Shown here: piece by piece, positions 3-27,897 of the stretch | Layout: the number at the start of each line of letters is the position of its first letter | How positions within the stretch are numbered: the stretch's first letter is position 1 | From: a virus | Direction: 5' to 3' (one strand) | DNA length: 34,632 nt | IMG/VR virus record: IMGVR_UViG_3300034073_002218 | Coordinates: 1 to 34,632 of that record | Position numbers and translations under genes: made by a program | The notes under the pieces: model-generated | Databases searched by the model: none | Seen by the model: only the letters and a program-made list of their open reading frames with translations | What the model was told of the DNA's origin: nothing

Positions 3-620
3 AAAATAAGCGGAATTTACAAAATAATAAACAAGATTGATAATAAATATTATGTAGGAAGTAGTAAAAATATCTACAAAAGATGGAGAAAACATAAATC
101 CCTTCTTAGACACAATAAACATATAAACGACTATCTTCAAAACGCTTTCAATTTACACGGTGAAATAAATTTTGAATTTGTTATAATAGAAAAATGTTTA
201 GTTGAAAATTTAAAAGATGTAGAACAAAAATATTTAGACATAGCAAAGTCTAATCAAAATAATAATTACAATTTAAATTTTGAATCTTGTGGAGGTGATC
301 ACAGTATCCATAGCATTGAAAAAATTAGATTGGGTAGAATTAATTTTTTTAAAAATCCAAAGAATAGAAAGATTGCCAGTGATATTTCTAAAAAACAATG
401 GGCTAATATTGAATTTAAAGAAACCAGACTTGGAAAAAATCATCCATTGTACAATTCAATGAAATATACATTTTATAATAGAAAAACAAATATTACAGAG
501 CATTGTACAATGAATGAGTTATATACAAAATATAATTTATATAGAAGTAATGTTTGGGCTCTTTGTATGAAAAGAATTAAATCTGTAAAAAATTGGATTC
601 TTATTCATAATCCCGAATAG
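3..620 (+). CDS. GIY-YIG homing endonuclease, 5' end cut by window
   Basis: The open frame runs in from the left edge without a stop, so the start lies outside the window. The first visible residues are KISGIYKIINKIDNKYYVGS, the GIY...YVG core, followed by SKNIYKRWRKHK with the catalytic-type arginine. The C-terminus (about the last 50 residues, from KYTFYNRKTN to NWIL) resembles a NUMOD1-type DNA-binding tail. It is a paralogue of the gene at 22950, with a very similar first 60 residues. The stop lies 20 bases inside the 3' end of the oppositely oriented DNA ligase gene, so the two genes overlap tail to tail. Likely a free-standing homing endonuclease cutting one DNA strand or both at a nearby site; the target is unknown. 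Confidence 0.88.
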   Translation, partial: KISGIYKIINKIDNKYYVGSSKNIYKRWRKHKSLLRHNKHINDYLQNAFNLHGEINFEFVIIEKCLVENLKDVEQKYLDIAKSNQNNNYNLNFESCGGDHSIHSIEKIRLGRINFFKNPKNRKIASDISKKQWANIEFKETRLGKNHPLYNSMKYTFYNRKTNITEHCTMNELYTKYNLYRSNVWALCMKRIKSVKNWILIHNPE

Positions 621-4090: not shown

Positions 4091-4798
4091 ATGGAAAATC
4101 TTTATGTTGAAAAAGTAAACAATTTGACTGCCAAAGAATTGATTGTTAAACATCATTATACACACAAATGGACCATAGCTGAGTTGTGTATAGGAATCTT
4201 CGACAAAAGCAAAGGTAGTGTATTTTTTGAAGCGCCTAAGCTGGTTGGGGCGGTTGTATTTGGACCAACTGCTGGTGCTAATGTGGCTAGAAGTGTATCA
4301 CCTTTACTAAATCATTCCAATTTATGGGAGTTGAAACGATTGTGGGTAGAAGATGATTTGGGTAAAAATACTGAAAGTTGGGTTATTGGTCAATGTTTGA
4401 AATATATCAAACTCAATCATCCTGAAATAAAATGTTTGATCAGTTATGCGGATCCTGATGCTGGACACATTGGTACCATATATCAAGCTACTAATTGGCT
4501 GTATCAAAATATTGAAAGACCCAAAGGTACCAGTGGTTATATTGTTAGTTTTGATGGTGGTGTTAAATGGCAACATTCACGTACACTATTTAACAAATAT
4601 GGTACGTTTAACTATAACAAATTAATAGAAGTATTACCTAGACCATTTAAAATCAAAGAATTGTCAGTTAAAGAAAGATATATCTATCCACTGGGAAGCA
4701 AAGTGGAAAAGAAAAATCTGATTAAAAGTTTGAATTATCCCATTATAGAATATCCCAAACTCAAATCAGATAAAGAAACAATAATAGAATTTAATTAA
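4091..4798 (+). CDS. Mom-like DNA-modification acyltransferase (GNAT fold)
   Basis: 235 aa. Resembles the phage Mu Mom family, whose Mu member converts adenine in DNA to a carbamoylmethyl derivative that resists restriction. Family-like features are IVKHHYTHKW near the N-terminus, ELKRLWVEDDLGKNTESWVIG in the middle, and SYADPDAGHIGTIYQATNWL. It stands alone on the plus strand in a minus-strand region with its own promoter. Its stop overlaps that of the convergent gene 4791-5639 inside the palindrome TTAATTAA. The chemical product cannot be read from sequence. Confidence 0.72.
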   Translation: MENLYVEKVNNLTAKELIVKHHYTHKWTIAELCIGIFDKSKGSVFFEAPKLVGAVVFGPTAGANVARSVSPLLNHSNLWELKRLWVEDDLGKNTESWVIGQCLKYIKLNHPEIKCLISYADPDAGHIGTIYQATNWLYQNIERPKGTSGYIVSFDGGVKWQHSRTLFNKYGTFNYNKLIEVLPRPFKIKELSVKERYIYPLGSKVEKKNLIKSLNYPIIEYPKLKSDKETIIEFN

Positions 4799-5639
4799 TA
4801 ATCTTTAACTGAATATTACCCAGTGTAAGATTCTGCACAATAACATTCTTAGCATCAAGCAATTCATACTTGCTATCCACTCGCTTTACTTTACGATTAC
4901 CCTTCTTGCTCTTACGATACACAATAACACCACCACTATAACTTTTAACAATCAGTTGCGCAACTTTCTTACGCCATTCGTAAGCTGAAAAGTTATTGAT
5001 AACATCAATCAAAATAGTACCAGTAATCTTGTTACGAATATCAGTATCAGATTTGATCATAACCAACAAATTATCAAACAATTCAAAATCAGCACTGGAA
5101 AACTCAGTGATCTTCTTACGAAAATATTGATTGAAATATTTGGTAACGTTACTGTCAACAAAATAGGCATTCAAAATCTTATCACAAAACGAACGAATCA
5201 TAACAAGTTCATTGTAACGATCAGTGACTTCACCCCTCGTTTTGATAGCAAAATCAATAATGCCACTTTCCTTCTTCAATTCATACGACTTGTTATTAAG
5301 TGTTACATCACCAGTTTCACCACGTTTGATATTGCTCTTGCGTGAATCACCAAGCATCAAAAACATAGACAACTCACCACGACCAGTTTGATGCTTGATG
5401 TTTTCAGGCAACGCAAGCACATTGTCAATTTTATGTGCATCACTATTAACATCATTCACTTCCTTGAGGAATTCATCCACACTGTCAAATTGAGGAAGCT
5501 TGTTGATGCCAATGTCAGTCAACGATGCAACCAAGTGGTCAACCCTAGAAAGGTGAGACTCAGACTTGTTTTTCTTCTCAAGCTTGAGAAGTCCATTTTT
5601 GATTTGATTGCTAAAAAAGGTGGTAGATTTGGTGCTCAT
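4791..5639 (-). CDS. Unknown protein, possible PD-(D/E)XK nuclease
   Basis: 282 aa from the ATG at 5639. Not firmly recognised. GRGELSMFLMLGDSRKSN followed by GDVTLNNKSYELKKESG has the Glu, Asp, ExK order of PD-(D/E)XK nucleases (Asp in GDV, Glu-Leu-Lys in YELK), which would suit a DNA-cleaving enzyme. The rest is charged and helical. The open frame continues upstream to a TTG at 5669, but this stretch holds the promoter -10 and one arm of a long hairpin. The arrangement next to a Mom-like gene makes a modification/nuclease relation possible, but nothing proves it. Confidence 0.55.
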   Translation of the reverse strand: MSTKSTTFFSNQIKNGLLKLEKKNKSESHLSRVDHLVASLTDIGINKLPQFDSVDEFLKEVNDVNSDAHKIDNVLALPENIKHQTGRGELSMFLMLGDSRKSNIKRGETGDVTLNNKSYELKKESGIIDFAIKTRGEVTDRYNELVMIRSFCDKILNAYFVDSNVTKYFNQYFRKKITEFSSADFELFDNLLVMIKSDTDIRNKITGTILIDVINNFSAYEWRKKVAQLIVKSYSGGVIVYRKSKKGNRKVKRVDSKYELLDAKNVIVQNLTLGNIQLKIIN

Positions 5640-5666
5640 CACAAGTACCAATCTACCACCTTTTTT
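5613..5666 (-). terminator. Long hairpin terminator enclosing the next gene's -10 and start codon
   Basis: Perfect 17-bp inverted repeat, arms 5650-5666 and 5613-5629 (core GGTGGTAGATT), extendable by GGT/ACC past one bulged base. On the minus strand it ends in six T, the form of an intrinsic terminator for transcripts of 5682-6407. The 5' arm contains the extended -10 of the next gene, the loop contains its ATG, and the 3' arm lies in its first codons. Transcripts starting at that promoter would lack the 5' arm. The mirrored arms could also stop plus-strand transcripts. Confidence 0.75.
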
Positions 5667-5677
5667 CAAAATGTCAA
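5650..5677 (-). promoter_or_regulatory. Promoter inside the terminator stem
   Basis: TTGACA (5677-5672), 16-bp spacer, extended -10 TGGTAGATT (hexamer 5655-5650), 10 bases to the ATG at 5639. Confidence 0.7.
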
Positions 5678-5681
5678 CAGC

Positions 5682-6407
5682 TTATTTTAAGCCTTTATAA
5701 GTTTCAATTGGTTTTTTTGTAGCCAAGTCTTGGTCAAGAATGTCAATTGCTTTTTTCTTAGACTTATAAAAAGCGTGGGTCAACAATTTAAGATCCACAT
5801 CTTCAACGTCATATCCCATCTTAATATACTTAACCAACCTCTTTAAAGTTACACTAGGATAGTAAATACTACCTTCATTAAACTTCAATTTATTAGTCTT
5901 GATATCATCTAAAATGCCATTTTCATAAACTACATTGGTACCATCATAAGCAATGCGACATACATTGATATCAAATGACTTAAATAGTTCTTCAATGTTA
6001 TCAAAATACTTGAATGTTACGCACTGAATCTTCCAATCAACATCCATATACTTAATTGTAAGTGTACAATGCCACTCACTGTATATGGTAGATTCAATTT
6101 TTATATATCCCGCAGTAACACTGCTTACACTCAGATCATATACAAACTTTTCAAATTGTTCTTTGTTTTTAAAGAACACATCTACGTCAGCATTTGTTAA
6201 TGGTAACTTACGATAGGTTCTATGTAAACAACCACCAGCAATCCAAGGTCCATTTTCAGTACACTTAGGCAATAACTCAATCAAGTATTCCAACACACTT
6301 GATGTGGGTAAATGCTTTAAAAACAAATTTAACGTGGTCTTTTCTAGTTTCATTGGAACTTTATATGGTTCTTGTGGTAGTTCCACAAATTTAATATCCA
6401 GATTCAT
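5682..6407 (-). CDS. Nucleotidyltransferase, pol-beta superfamily
   Basis: 241 aa. WIAGGCLHRTY, then NADVDVFF, gives the GG and DxD signature of pol-beta-type nucleotidyltransferases; MDVDWKIQCV could supply the third acidic residue. Members add nucleotides to tRNA, other RNA, proteins or small molecules; the substrate cannot be told here. It starts 17 bases inside the upstream small Cys-rich gene, implying translational coupling. Transcription probably ends at the hairpin at 5613-5666. With ligases and end-processing enzymes nearby, an RNA 3'-end role is an attractive but unproven idea. Confidence 0.75.
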   Translation of the reverse strand: MNLDIKFVELPQEPYKVPMKLEKTTLNLFLKHLPTSSVLEYLIELLPKCTENGPWIAGGCLHRTYRKLPLTNADVDVFFKNKEQFEKFVYDLSVSSVTAGYIKIESTIYSEWHCTLTIKYMDVDWKIQCVTFKYFDNIEELFKSFDINVCRIAYDGTNVVYENGILDDIKTNKLKFNEGSIYYPSVTLKRLVKYIKMGYDVEDVDLKLLTHAFYKSKKKAIDILDQDLATKKPIETYKGLK

Positions 6408-6665: not shown

Positions 6666-7676
6666 TCAGTCCTTGCTTCCTAGAAGATACGTATTGCTAA
6701 TAGCCTTGAAACTAAACTCCTTCTCAAGACCACGTACAACCACACCTTCCCTATCAACTTCCATATTCAATACACTCTTACCTTCAGCATACTTCAACAT
6801 ATAGTCAACAATATTGTTTTCATTTGGAATCACAAACCCATACTTCTCAAGTACAGGCACCATCTGCAATTGCAAACCAAACAATACCCACTCAAGTTCA
6901 TCAAAGAACATACGGCGACCCTTATCAATGTCATAACCAGTAAAGAAGAACAACTTGTGGTCACTCATTCCATACAAATTACCATTGATACCAGCACCAA
7001 TTAGTTCTCCCTGCAAAGCAATATTCTTGCCGTGTTTAGTCATCTTGTCCTTCAATTCAAGCACCTTGGCCATACGCCATAGACTATTGTCATCAGTTTC
7101 AGACAACTCCCAATTACGGCCACAAACCCCAAATACTCCATCCTTGAAGTAACAAGTGAAACTAGTACCATCCAACTTTTCAGTTACATAAGCACGTTCA
7201 CCAACTGGACTAAATCCAACTTCACTCTCAAAGTTCTGAATACGAATTTCCTCAGTCTTTGGAATAAAGCTAGGAAATGTTCCCTTGATCTTTCCAGCCA
7301 ATTGAGCGGGAATAGGAGGTTCATACTTGACAATATCAAGAGCCTCAGTCAAATCATCACCTTCCTTTGGATTACTAATACCCTCTGGAATTGGAGTCAA
7401 TAGACCTTGACTAATTTGTCCACGCAACCTAATGGTCTTGAGACGAAATCCCTCACTAGAACCCATACGCTTGAAGCTACTCTTGCGTAGAAATTCAAAT
7501 TGAGGGCGGATCGGCAAAAAGCTGTCAATTTCGTAATAAACAGCCAAATCACCCACCTTGTATTTAGTCACAGAATCTACTACCCACCAACCCCCCACAC
7601 GATATGCGCAAATTTTATCTGCTCCTTCAATTAACTTGATTTCTTCAATTTTTTTGATTGACGCTAGTTTTCTCAT
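6666..7676 (-). CDS. RNA ligase, DRB0094/Rnl5 type
   Basis: 336 aa, matching the family of Deinococcus radiodurans RNA ligase: an N-terminal OB-like domain (from MRKLASIKKIEEIKLIEGAD and GDLAVYYEIDSFLP to about 115), then a nucleotidyltransferase domain with TEKLDGTSFT (nucleophile Lys167), GVCGRNWEL, LQGELIG, and EGVVVRG. Such enzymes join a 3'-OH to a 5'-phosphate in nicked duplexes containing RNA. The first 32 bases overlap the end of the homing endonuclease upstream, and no own TTGAC promoter is visible, so it is probably read from the promoter at 8762-8790 through the endonuclease gene. Confidence 0.92.
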   Translation of the reverse strand: MRKLASIKKIEEIKLIEGADKICAYRVGGWWVVDSVTKYKVGDLAVYYEIDSFLPIRPQFEFLRKSSFKRMGSSEGFRLKTIRLRGQISQGLLTPIPEGISNPKEGDDLTEALDIVKYEPPIPAQLAGKIKGTFPSFIPKTEEIRIQNFESEVGFSPVGERAYVTEKLDGTSFTCYFKDGVFGVCGRNWELSETDDNSLWRMAKVLELKDKMTKHGKNIALQGELIGAGINGNLYGMSDHKLFFFTGYDIDKGRRMFFDELEWVLFGLQLQMVPVLEKYGFVIPNENNIVDYMLKYAEGKSVLNMEVDREGVVVRGLEKEFSFKAISNTYLLGSKD

Positions 7677-8376
7677 AAAATTTTTTTAAACTATTTTTTA
7701 TTTTTTCTCTCGTCTCTAACGATACACTATGTCCCTTCAAAGTACAAGATGTTTTTCTTCTTTTTTCCGGATTTAGATTTGCATTTCTGATGTTTTCAAG
7801 TGCATCTTTAGAAAAAGATTGTTTTTTCCTTTCAGGTCCTATTTTTTGAGTATTGCCTCTACCAAACAACCATCCATTTGGTATACCCTCATCATCTTTG
7901 AATTTTTTAGATTCTAGTGTTATGGGATTATGATACCATTTTTTACCGATTTTAGATTTAATTTGATTTAATTTATGTTGTACTGACCAAGTGGTACCTG
8001 TTTTAGCTTTTCTCATTTTTTCTCTCGTTTCAATCGAACGAGTTTTTCCTTTATTTAGTTGACTTATTTTTAATCTTGTTTCAGCTGTCATAGGTTGACC
8101 TCCCCATGCATATGGAGTTATATTATAACCTATGTCTCTATTTGTAGAATTAAATTTTTTAATATAAAATTCTTCTTTTTCTCTAGCGTCGTTAAATGTA
8201 AAACATTCTTCTAATATTTCTCGGTTAAAACTATTTTTTCCATATTTTTTAATTGCACTGGTAATTAGTTTTCCACTACCAATGTATCCATCATCAATGT
8301 TATCAGTTTTATGTTGACCTATGTATATTTTATTATTGACTGTACAAGTTGTTTTATATATAATCCATTTCTTCAT
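7645..8376 (-). CDS. GIY-YIG homing endonuclease with NUMOD3 repeats
   Basis: 243 aa. N-terminal GIY-YIG-like core (WIIYKTTCTVNNKIYIGQHK, DGYIGSG) followed by NUMOD3-type DNA-binding repeats (TAETRLKISQLNKGK, SIETREKMRKAKTG, SLETREKIKNSLKK) and the tail element WYHNP...IPNGWLFGR seen in phage homing enzymes. It sits between a small unknown gene and the RNA ligase, and its last 32 bases overlap the ligase start, so insertion placed it as an operon member. Base composition is more AT-rich than its neighbours, consistent with recent arrival. Confidence 0.9.
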   Translation of the reverse strand: MKKWIIYKTTCTVNNKIYIGQHKTDNIDDGYIGSGKLITSAIKKYGKNSFNREILEECFTFNDAREKEEFYIKKFNSTNRDIGYNITPYAWGGQPMTAETRLKISQLNKGKTRSIETREKMRKAKTGTTWSVQHKLNQIKSKIGKKWYHNPITLESKKFKDDEGIPNGWLFGRGNTQKIGPERKKQSFSKDALENIRNANLNPEKRRKTSCTLKGHSVSLETREKIKNSLKKFYEKTSVNQKN

Positions 8377-8791: not shown

Positions 8792-8822
8792 AAAAAACCC
8801 GCCAGATTTCTCTAGCGGGTTT
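8792..8822 (-). terminator. Intrinsic terminator of the SPFH operon
   Basis: 8-bp stem AAACCCGC/GCGGGTTT (arms 8815-8822 and 8795-8802), with T6 at 8797-8792 on the minus strand. It closes the operon 11248-8841. Confidence 0.88.
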
Positions 8823-8840
8823 CTCCACTTATCCTACCAC

Positions 8841-11290: not shown

Positions 11291-11319
11291 AAAATCCCCT
11301 CTTTTTACGGAGGGGATTT
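11291..11319 (-). terminator. Intrinsic terminator of the kinase-phosphoesterase operon
   Basis: 10-bp perfect stem AAATCCCCTC/GAGGGGATTT (arms 11310-11319 and 11292-11301), 8-base loop, minus-strand tail TTTTTG. Confidence 0.88.
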
Positions 11320-17202: not shown

Positions 17203-17231
17203 ACTCTACCACACCTTTTTTTAAATGTCAA
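17203..17231 (-). promoter_or_regulatory. Promoter of the 17196-16246 micro-operon
   Basis: TTGACA (17231-17226), 17-bp spacer, extended -10 TGGTAGAGT (hexamer 17208-17203), 6 bases to the ATG. The -35 is in the last codons of dCMP deaminase (Phe-Asp-Ile-stop). Confidence 0.78.
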
Positions 17232-17745: not shown

Positions 17746-17751
17746 ATGATA

Positions 17752-17780
17752 ATACTACAATCGTATATATTTTTTGTCAA
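17752..17780 (-). promoter_or_regulatory. Promoter of dCMP deaminase
   Basis: TTGACA (17780-17775), 17-bp spacer, -10 TAGTAT (17757-17752), 6 bases to the ATG. The -35 is shared back to back with the plus-strand promoter at 17774. Confidence 0.72.
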
Positions 17781-17802
17781 TCCCATAAATCTTAACTATA
17801 TA
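17774..17802 (+). promoter_or_regulatory. Promoter of the HNH endonuclease
   Basis: TTGTCA, 17-bp spacer, -10 TATATA, 6 bases to the ATG at 17809. Overlaps the divergent -35 (TTGTCAA reads TTGACAA on the other strand), so only one polymerase may bind at a time. Confidence 0.55.
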
Positions 17803-17808
17803 TTATAT

Positions 17809-18654
17809 ATGAAAACATATAAAATAAAAAATTATCATTATTACAACAGATATGTTAAATTTATTGAGTATTACAAAAAACATCCAATAGACACAAACAA
17901 ATATTTTGAAGAACATCATATTCTTCCAAGATCTATGGGCGGATTAAACCACGACGATAATTTGGTTAATTTAACAGCTAGAGCTCATTTTTTAGCTCAT
18001 TATTTGTTATGGAAATCTTACCGAAACAAAAAAACAGCATATGCATTCAAGTGTATGTCGGCGTTTGTTAAAACAAAAAATGGAAAAAAAGTTAGGTATT
18101 TAAATAGCAGACTTTTTGAAAAATTTGTTTTTTTATCAAAAAAATATTTCGTAGGTAAAAATCATCCATTGTATGGCAAAAGTAAATCTGAAGAATCAAT
18201 TCAAAAACAAAGACTAAAAATACTTGGTAAAAAACAGTCTATTGAACATATAACAAAAAGAAAAGATAGTTTAATTTCATATTATAAAAACAACCCGAAT
18301 GTTAAAAGAGGATTTTCAGGCAGAAAACATTCGGTGGAAACCAAAATTAGAATGAGTCAAACGCAGTCTGGAGTAAAAAAAACTAAACAACACGTGGAAA
18401 AAATGAAGTTACGTCCTCAAAACAATTTGAATACAGAATGTATATATTGTCATAAAATCGGCGAATATAAAAATATGAAAAGATGGCATTTTGATTTCTG
18501 CAAAGAAAATCCTAATAAAAAACAAAGAAAACTAGAATTAATTTCTTGTTATAAATGTGGATTTTCTAGTAACAAAACGCCTAACTTTTTTAGAAATCAC
18601 CAAAATAACTGTAAGTCAGTCCCAAAGTTGGGAATAATATTCAGCGAACAATAA
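17809..18654 (+). CDS. HNH homing endonuclease
   Basis: 281 aa from the ATG at 17809. N-terminal HNH core: EEHHILPRSMGGLNHDDNLV, then LTARAHFLAHYLLW; NUMOD3-like repeats follow (GKNHPLYGKSKSEESIQKQR, GRKHSVETKIRMSQTQSG). The C-terminal part has two zinc-finger-like pairs (CIYCHKIGEY...HFDFC and CYKCGFSS...HQNNC). It is on the plus strand beside dCMP deaminase, and its last 39 bases overlap the end of the convergent gene at 18616. Earlier in-frame starts exist up to 17746 but would lie in the promoter. Confidence 0.9.
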   Translation: MKTYKIKNYHYYNRYVKFIEYYKKHPIDTNKYFEEHHILPRSMGGLNHDDNLVNLTARAHFLAHYLLWKSYRNKKTAYAFKCMSAFVKTKNGKKVRYLNSRLFEKFVFLSKKYFVGKNHPLYGKSKSEESIQKQRLKILGKKQSIEHITKRKDSLISYYKNNPNVKRGFSGRKHSVETKIRMSQTQSGVKKTKQHVEKMKLRPQNNLNTECIYCHKIGEYKNMKRWHFDFCKENPNKKQRKLELISCYKCGFSSNKTPNFFRNHQNNCKSVPKLGIIFSEQ

Positions 18655-19217: not shown

Positions 19218-19243
19218 AAAAACCCCACATTTTACTGTGGGGT
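19218..19243 (-). terminator. Intrinsic terminator of 19271-19495
   Basis: 8-bp stem ACCCCACA/TGTGGGGT (arms 19236-19243 and 19222-19229), 6-base loop, minus-strand tail TTTTG. Confidence 0.87.
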
Positions 19244-22949: not shown

Positions 22950-23681
22950 ATGAATATCATATCAGGCATATACAAGATTGTCAATATCAAAAACGGTAAA
23001 ATGTACATTGGAAGTAGTAAAAATATTAAGAGACGTTGGGGTATACATAAATCATCTTTAAAAAATAATCGCCATCATTCAGTATATCTTCAAAGAGCGT
23101 GGAACAAATATGGAAAAGAAAACTTTATTTATGAAGTTATAAAAGAAATGCCAAATGCATCGGATACTGAGTTATTCAATGAAGAAACAAATTACATCAC
23201 GACATTAAAACCAGACTACAATGTGGGTGGTGTTGGCGGAGGAGATAATTTAACTAACAATCCAAATAGAGAATTAATTATAGAAAAAATCACACTCGCT
23301 GTTCATGCACGTAATGCCAGAATGACTGAACAAGACAAATTAGAAAAATGGAGTAGACCTGGAGAAAAGAACCCAAATTGGAAAGGTGGATTAACTTTTT
23401 GTGAGTGTGGAAATAGAATAAGCAGTACTGCAAATTGTTGTGCAAGTTGTTTTGATAAATCGGGTATAAACAACCCTTTTTATGGAAAACATCATACCTA
23501 TCAAACTAAAGAAAAGCTCCGTAGAATAAATAAGGGAAGATTGCCGCCCAATACAAATCCTATAGTATTGGACGGCGTTTCTTATATTTCACAAGCAGAT
23601 GCTGCTCGTAAATTAGGAGTATCAATTGGCACCATTAGTAATTGGGTTACTGGTAAATTTAAACGGCGACCGACATCTTAA
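22950..23681 (+). CDS. GIY-YIG homing endonuclease
   Basis: 243 aa. GIYKIVNIKNGKMYIGSSKN and RRWGIHK form the GIY-YIG core, close to that of the partial gene at 3. The middle has a Cys cluster (CECGNRIS...CCASC), a probable zinc finger, then NUMOD3-like NPFYGKHHTYQTKEKLRRIN, and a C-terminal NUMOD1/HTH segment (SQADAARKLGVSIGTISNWV). Its stop lies 23 bases inside the 3' end of thymidylate synthase on the other strand. Upstream region is short and AT-rich. Confidence 0.92.
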   Translation: MNIISGIYKIVNIKNGKMYIGSSKNIKRRWGIHKSSLKNNRHHSVYLQRAWNKYGKENFIYEVIKEMPNASDTELFNEETNYITTLKPDYNVGGVGGGDNLTNNPNRELIIEKITLAVHARNARMTEQDKLEKWSRPGEKNPNWKGGLTFCECGNRISSTANCCASCFDKSGINNPFYGKHHTYQTKEKLRRINKGRLPPNTNPIVLDGVSYISQADAARKLGVSIGTISNWVTGKFKRRPTS

Positions 23682-27653: not shown

Positions 27654-27897
27654 GTATTAGTTTTAGTTTTTGTTGACGGTTCAATTGTTTGATTTGATAC
27701 TCCCTCTTCATTGCTTCACTCTTAGTATCAAAACATTCAGTATATACTAATCTAACTGGTAGTCTAGTTTTAGTATATTTAGCACCACACCCTTTATTAT
27801 GATTACCAACTCGTTTTTCAACATCATTAGAATAACCACAATAAAGGGTGTTGTCACCACAAATAACTATATAACAACAATGATTCTTATCAACCAC
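27640..27897 (-). CDS. Single-domain GIY-YIG nuclease, YhbQ/UPF0213-like
   Basis: About 85 aa. YIVICGDNTLYCGYSNDVEKR, then GCGAKYTKTRLPVRLVYTE and EAMKREYQIKQL match the compact YhbQ/UPF0213 family, not the homing endonucleases with DNA-binding tails. Start is uncertain: GTG at 27897 or TTG at 27906, both overlapping the stop of the previous gene; no ATG is available. Probably an endonuclease acting in DNA repair or on structured DNA. Confidence 0.82.
   Translation of the reverse strand: MVDKNHCCYIVICGDNTLYCGYSNDVEKRVGNHNKGCGAKYTKTRLPVRLVYTECFDTKSEAMKREYQIKQLNRQQKLKLIREKK

Follow-up and report, generated by a model that had tools for sequence, protein, structure and literature searches.

An orphan gene encoding a 282-residue protein has its start codon enclosed by a perfect 17 bp inverted repeat in the window analysed here, the 34,632-base virus record of an uncultured phage. 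On balance we favour the reading that this repeat functions at the RNA level, silencing read-through transcripts and so insulating the gene from the one upstream. The reading is based on the fold of the read-through RNA, which lies far beyond that of shuffled sequences while the gene's own RNA is unfolded, on the retention of the hairpin in three lineages, one of which (L006) keeps it together with promoter and start, and on a deaminase gene that repeats the design with other sequences. Counting against it, promoter function constrains the 5′ arm and the encoded protein the 3′ arm.

RNA arriving from the nucleotidyltransferase-like gene upstream would contain both arms and close into a long hairpin that presents the start codon at its tip. 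The closed hairpin would block translation initiation on this RNA, much of which would probably end at the T6 in the window phage. RNA from the gene's own promoter would begin at about 5643, downstream of the 5′ arm; it would have an unfolded 5′ end and would be translated with almost no leader ahead of its start codon. Transcription of the convergent mom-like gene, on the plus strand, is probably also terminated by the hairpin. The features are listed in Table 1.

Table 1. Positions of the genes, promoter elements and repeat arms at the start of the 282-aa gene.
Feature	Position	Strand	Details
mom-like DNA modification gene, convergent	4091–4798	+	PF25680, E 2.1e-43
Orphan gene, 282 aa, putatively controlled by the element	4791–5639	−	always adjoins mom in the contigs found
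3′ arm of hairpin	5613–5629	−	ends in T6; codons 4–9 (K-S-T-T-F-F) of the 282-aa gene
Spacer of repeat	5630–5649	−	contains ATG (5639–5637); partly self-paired in the predicted fold
Predicted transcription start of the 282-aa gene	5642–5644	−	6–8 nt after the -10, from promoter geometry
5′ arm of hairpin	5650–5666	−	holds the extended -10 TGGTAGATT (5658–5650) and some of the promoter spacer
-35 box TTGACA of internal promoter	5672–5677	−	spacer of 16 to the -10; class TTGACt-N16/17-TGGTAnnnT-N6..10-ATG
Upstream gene, nucleotidyltransferase-like	5682–6407	−	PHROG 1614, E 2.9e-10; putative source of read-through RNA

Geometry, predicted folding and promoter of the repeat

The arms of the repeat read AAAAAAGGTGGTAGATT (5′ arm, 5666–5650) and AATCTACCACCTTTTTT (3′ arm, 5629–5613) on the minus strand, are 100% complementary and stand 20 nt apart, with the ATG at 5639 inside the spacer and a T6 in both directions (TTTTTTAGC on the minus strand, TTTTTTCAA on the plus strand). 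This confirmed the repeat as described in an earlier sequence-only reading, which had also placed the extended -10 in the 5′ arm and the first codons in the 3′ arm; both were found there, as TGGTAGATT at 5658–5650 and as codons 4–9, the fourth being only partly within the arm. To estimate chance expectation, the window was simulated 40 times with a first-order Markov model that preserves its dinucleotide make-up, and perfect repeats with a loop of up to 45 were considered. The longest perfect inverted repeat in these simulated windows was 13 bp, compared with the 17 bp observed; the repeat is far beyond chance, and it exceeded every other start-spanning repeat at the 671 gene starts of the window and of 14 related contigs.

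The minus-strand RNA from 5666 to 5613 gave a fold of -27.6 kcal/mol (z -7.8), a stability reached by none of 200 shuffled sequences, and the plus-strand RNA a fold of -30.6 kcal/mol (z -9.6). The spacer is predicted to pair further (GGU/ACC and CUU/GAG), which makes the whole a single long stem, closed by an apical loop of 5 nt and carrying the start codon at its tip. The predicted fold of RNA beginning at 5643 has an essentially unfolded 5′ end.

The internal promoter was identified as TTGACA-16-TAGATT, a sigma70-like promoter with an extended -10. Its class was present in 17 of 17 related records and a reversed control pattern was nearly absent. Promoters of the form TTGACt-N16/17-TGGTAnnnT stand 6–10 nt ahead of many genes, in the window at 1731, 4039, 8790, 11286, 14691, 16249 and 17231 (minus), and also in related contigs. 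Sigma70 promoters usually start transcription 6–8 nt after the -10, and because the ATG of this class lies 6–10 nt after the -10, almost leaderless mRNAs with leaders of about 0–5 nt are predicted; the leader of the 282-aa mRNA would be about 3–5 nt. With the start placed from the promoter class in this way, RNA from the gene's own promoter should lack the 5′ arm and so should not form the hairpin. The earlier proposal that read-through RNA carries both arms and own-promoter RNA lacks the first is thus supported by the promoter class. Shine-Dalgarno-like motifs were found before 8.0% of gene starts and 5.8% of internal ATGs in the phage group, GGAG, GAGG and AGGA were absent before the 39 promoter-class starts tested, and an AAGGTGG in the 5′ arm stands 16 nt from the ATG of the 282-aa gene. 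Because the group has almost no Shine-Dalgarno excess, structure at the AUG is a likely handle on translation.

How far coding and promoter constraints alone generate the pairing was assessed by synonymous recoding of the 282-aa gene. Recodings as stable as the native hairpin numbered 9 of 300 in the window, 14 of 300 in L001, 54 of 300 in L005 and 12 of 300 in L006, giving only moderate support for the hairpin. The mean fold of the recodings was already -19 kcal/mol, and promoter and amino-acid constraints account for part of the pairing. This would be expected if the repeat were not selected as a hairpin at all, the promoter and N-terminal codons being constrained separately, or one arm having been copied by a template-switch mutation, with the pairing functionless. 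The promoter at 17231 has a similar A-rich spacer, GGTGTGGTAGA, and no second arm, which also fits this explanation, as does a 12-bp start repeat that its relatives have not kept. The latter lies at the sulfotransferase start of contig L125 (15610–15648, minus strand), where a hairpin with T8 over the ATG has the shape of a textbook terminator; it was rejected as a conserved case, the long form being missing in the other 30 homologous loci, and start-spanning repeats can, to judge from this locus, arise transiently. A functionless repeat is nevertheless improbable, given that three lineages keep the hairpin through indels and amino-acid changes and that a second gene, the deaminase, has the same design in other sequences.

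Across the phage group, strong spanning repeats (weight of at least 22) were about four times commoner at gene starts (8 of 671) than at internal ATGs (4 of 1305), the starts being small numbers that include several terminators of preceding genes or members of the 282-aa gene family. A start hairpin had been expected on every gene of the promoter class. This was rejected, since most have none: strong start hairpins occurred among 52 instances of the class only at the 282-aa gene and at the deaminase gene of L013. A long inverted repeat also lies inside a small 88-aa ORF (27784–27854), with differing sequence at L114:7908–7960 and L141:17685–17735.

The hairpin as a probable termination signal

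Termination signals were ranked by d, the d'Aubenton-Carafa score, calculated by its generally known formula. The hairpin has a GC-containing stem with a U-tract directly after it and scored +9.8 on the minus strand and +17.1 on the plus strand, ranking 9 and 6 among the 436 T-tracts of the window. The nucleotidyltransferase-like ORF stops 15 nt ahead of the hairpin and 4 nt ahead of the -35, these 4 nt being the only free space between stop codon and promoter. The ordinary terminators of the phage likewise lie just after stop codons, several of them abutting or overlapping the -35 of the gene that follows (1756–1724, 8825–8792 and 11319–11292), and insulation of gene from gene is therefore a theme of this genome. 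The terminator at 1724–1756, AAAGTCAAGGA/TCCTTGACTTT with T6, provides with its 3′ arm and T-tract the -35 box and the beginning of the spacer of the DNA ligase promoter, and a longer ATG of the ligase ORF, at 1743, lies in its loop. At 8792–8825, 11292–11319 and 19222–19243 the T-tract of the terminator is continuous with the TTGAC of the promoter that follows.

The position and scores of the hairpin are consistent with a plain rho-independent terminator, whose sole role would be to end transcription of the nucleotidyltransferase unit, of mom or of both at the T6, the overlap with promoter and start codon being mere compaction. On the plus strand it is the first good terminator behind mom, a point not made in the sequence-only reading, with none better between the mom end and 5661, and published measurements show that terminators can function within the first 100 bp of coding sequence (PMC4824070). 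According to the same study, a terminator can be repressed by ribosomes that finish at a stop codon very close to it (PMC4824070), which counts against this role. The minus-strand score was +13.0 in L001 and +5.4 in L005, where stem and U-tract are kept, and fell below zero in L004 (-3.2) and L006 (-8.4), where the hairpin is retained. The deaminase start hairpins of related phages have no U-tract at all. We consider a plain terminator rather unlikely as the whole explanation.

For the earlier claim that the repeat is a terminator, this means that termination is plausible in the window, whereas it is not the whole story, the hairpin having outlasted the termination signal in two relatives and occurring on deaminase starts without one. 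The common denominator is, as far as the folds predict, a start-codon hairpin formed only in upstream RNA and not a terminator as such. Hiding of the start codon appears to be the best-kept property, with termination likely in the window's version and not in all relatives.

Persistence in relatives and a similar design at the deaminase gene

The 282-aa gene was found in six other contigs (L001–L006). L001–L003 differ from the window by a synonymous C to T change in the 3′ arm, converting a G-C pair to G-U in the RNA, and L004 has one further change that introduces a mismatch. In L005 and L006 (79% identical proteins) the hairpin is kept with small bulges or mismatches, and it has thus persisted in three lineages despite indels, substitutions and amino-acid changes. 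The consensus fold contained 23 pairs. Paired changes in related phages, which the sequence-only reading had looked to as evidence, were seen to the extent of one pair changed on both sides; the covariation term was about zero because the sequence set, three lineages of the 282-aa gene, is small. No relative was found in which the gene order is intact and the repeat lost: L001–L005 retain both, and L006 retains the hairpin with promoter and start even though a 126-aa ORF separates the nucleotidyltransferase gene from the 282-aa gene.

L012 and L013 lack the 282-aa gene at this place, and their deaminase gene directly follows the nucleotidyltransferase gene. In L013 a hairpin of 23 pairs surrounds the deaminase ATG (-34.6 kcal/mol), quite unlike that of the 282-aa gene in sequence and with the same layout, its 5′ arm covering the -10 and its 3′ arm falling in the opening codons; only 1 of 1000 synonymous recodings was as stable. 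Weaker start hairpins were observed in L016 (49 of 1000 recodings as stable) and in L025, where a stem of 10 bp includes the AUG (129 of 1000), and little hairpin was found in L012 and L024. The deaminase start has no hairpin in the window or in L001, where divergent mom precedes it and there is no co-directional gene, so that deaminase hairpins were confined, in small numbers, to places where read-through from a gene in the same direction is possible. No U-tract accompanied any of them, and the L013 hairpin scored d = -24.6.

These comparisons also bear on a role of the repeat as DNA. The sequence-only reading had suggested that it might extrude or bind a dimeric protein over the -10, and neither received support, the 5′-arm sequence recurring in the promoter at 17231 with no second arm. 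Cruciform extrusion was set aside because of the 20-nt spacer and the imperfect arms of the relatives. An operator, at which a dimeric protein, perhaps the 282-aa product, would bind both arms over the -10 and repress the promoter, would suit the symmetric arms over the core promoter, whose centres are 37 bp apart or about 3.5 helical turns. It is nonetheless very unlikely: the DNA symmetry has been lost in relatives in ways that RNA partly tolerates (G-U in L001–L003), a half-site stands without a partner at 17231, and the deaminase hairpins share position and not sequence, which leaves no common operator.

Silencing of read-through RNA may extend beyond the 282-aa gene. Tentatively, this group of phages without Shine-Dalgarno signals could repeatedly build start-site-selective switches from the -10 and the first codons, in which RNA from the neighbouring gene is silenced and own-promoter RNA is free of the hairpin, so that about 65 bp would suffice for an insulated gene with almost no leader. 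In places, such a switch hairpin would also terminate the neighbour's RNA. If the favoured reading of the 282-aa element is correct, promoter-in-hairpin control of the T4 type reaches phages that do not use Shine-Dalgarno sequences and have almost leaderless mRNAs, promoter, start and terminator form a very compact insulator within about 65 bp, and the N-terminus of a protein is made to encode an RNA arm.

Comparison with known systems and a probable gene cassette

In T4 the initiation regions of gene e (lysozyme) and soc are closed in a hairpin only in RNA coming from upstream, and a promoter inside the hairpin gives RNA without the 5′ arm, which is translated (PMC3014915). The homing endonuclease genes I-TevI, I-TevII, I-TevIII, segB and mobE of Aeh1 follow the same hairpin logic (PMC2988022). 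The 282-aa element resembles gene e and I-TevI in the predicted fold, in which RNA initiated upstream encloses the initiation region in a stable hairpin, and in the placement, by sequence, of a promoter whose RNA would lack the 5′ arm. As in the homing endonuclease hairpins, this logic would serve an accessory gene embedded among the other genes of a unit. The element differs from gene e, and in ribosome site and promoter also from the homing endonuclease hairpins: T4 masks a Shine-Dalgarno sequence in the stem whereas the 282-aa gene has none, the T4 promoter is a late promoter (TATAAATA) and here it is sigma70-like with an extended -10, and the 282-aa mRNA is predicted to be almost leaderless, with a coding 3′ arm that carries T6. 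The element therefore appears to work like the T4 start hairpins and not to be a member of them, the Shine-Dalgarno in the stem and the late promoter being absent.

Rho-independent terminators share with the element a GC-containing stem and T6 just past a stop codon, with a positive score. Unlike them it holds the -10 and start codon of the next gene, has a long stem with a folded spacer, and does not keep its U-tract in all relatives. A direct precedent for a terminator overlapping the next start codon was not found in the literature searched, which is no proof of absence. A parallel with the 17-bp repeats found in mycobacteriophages of Cluster O was considered and rejected, because these are copies of a single fixed motif spread over the genome with no tie to gene starts (PMC4351075).

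The 282-aa product has no match in phages and no significant Pfam, PHROG or PDB match; unlike in the I-TevI group, no nuclease domain was recognised in it by these searches. A search with the alignment gained no further relatives. The AlphaFold model, made with four sequences, was poor (mean pLDDT 37), and a GDVTL-x(4)-YELK segment resembles PD-(D/E)XK by eye only. The gene forms a convergent pair with the mom-like gene (4091–5639). L005 and L006 have both genes together, and L012 and L013 lack the pair between their nucleotidyltransferase and deaminase genes; the two genes are probably a gene cassette. Four other ORFs of the window (3–620, 7645–8376, 17746–18654 and 22950–23681) resemble free-standing GIY-YIG or HNH homing endonucleases by eye, and these are dispersed between its metabolic genes.
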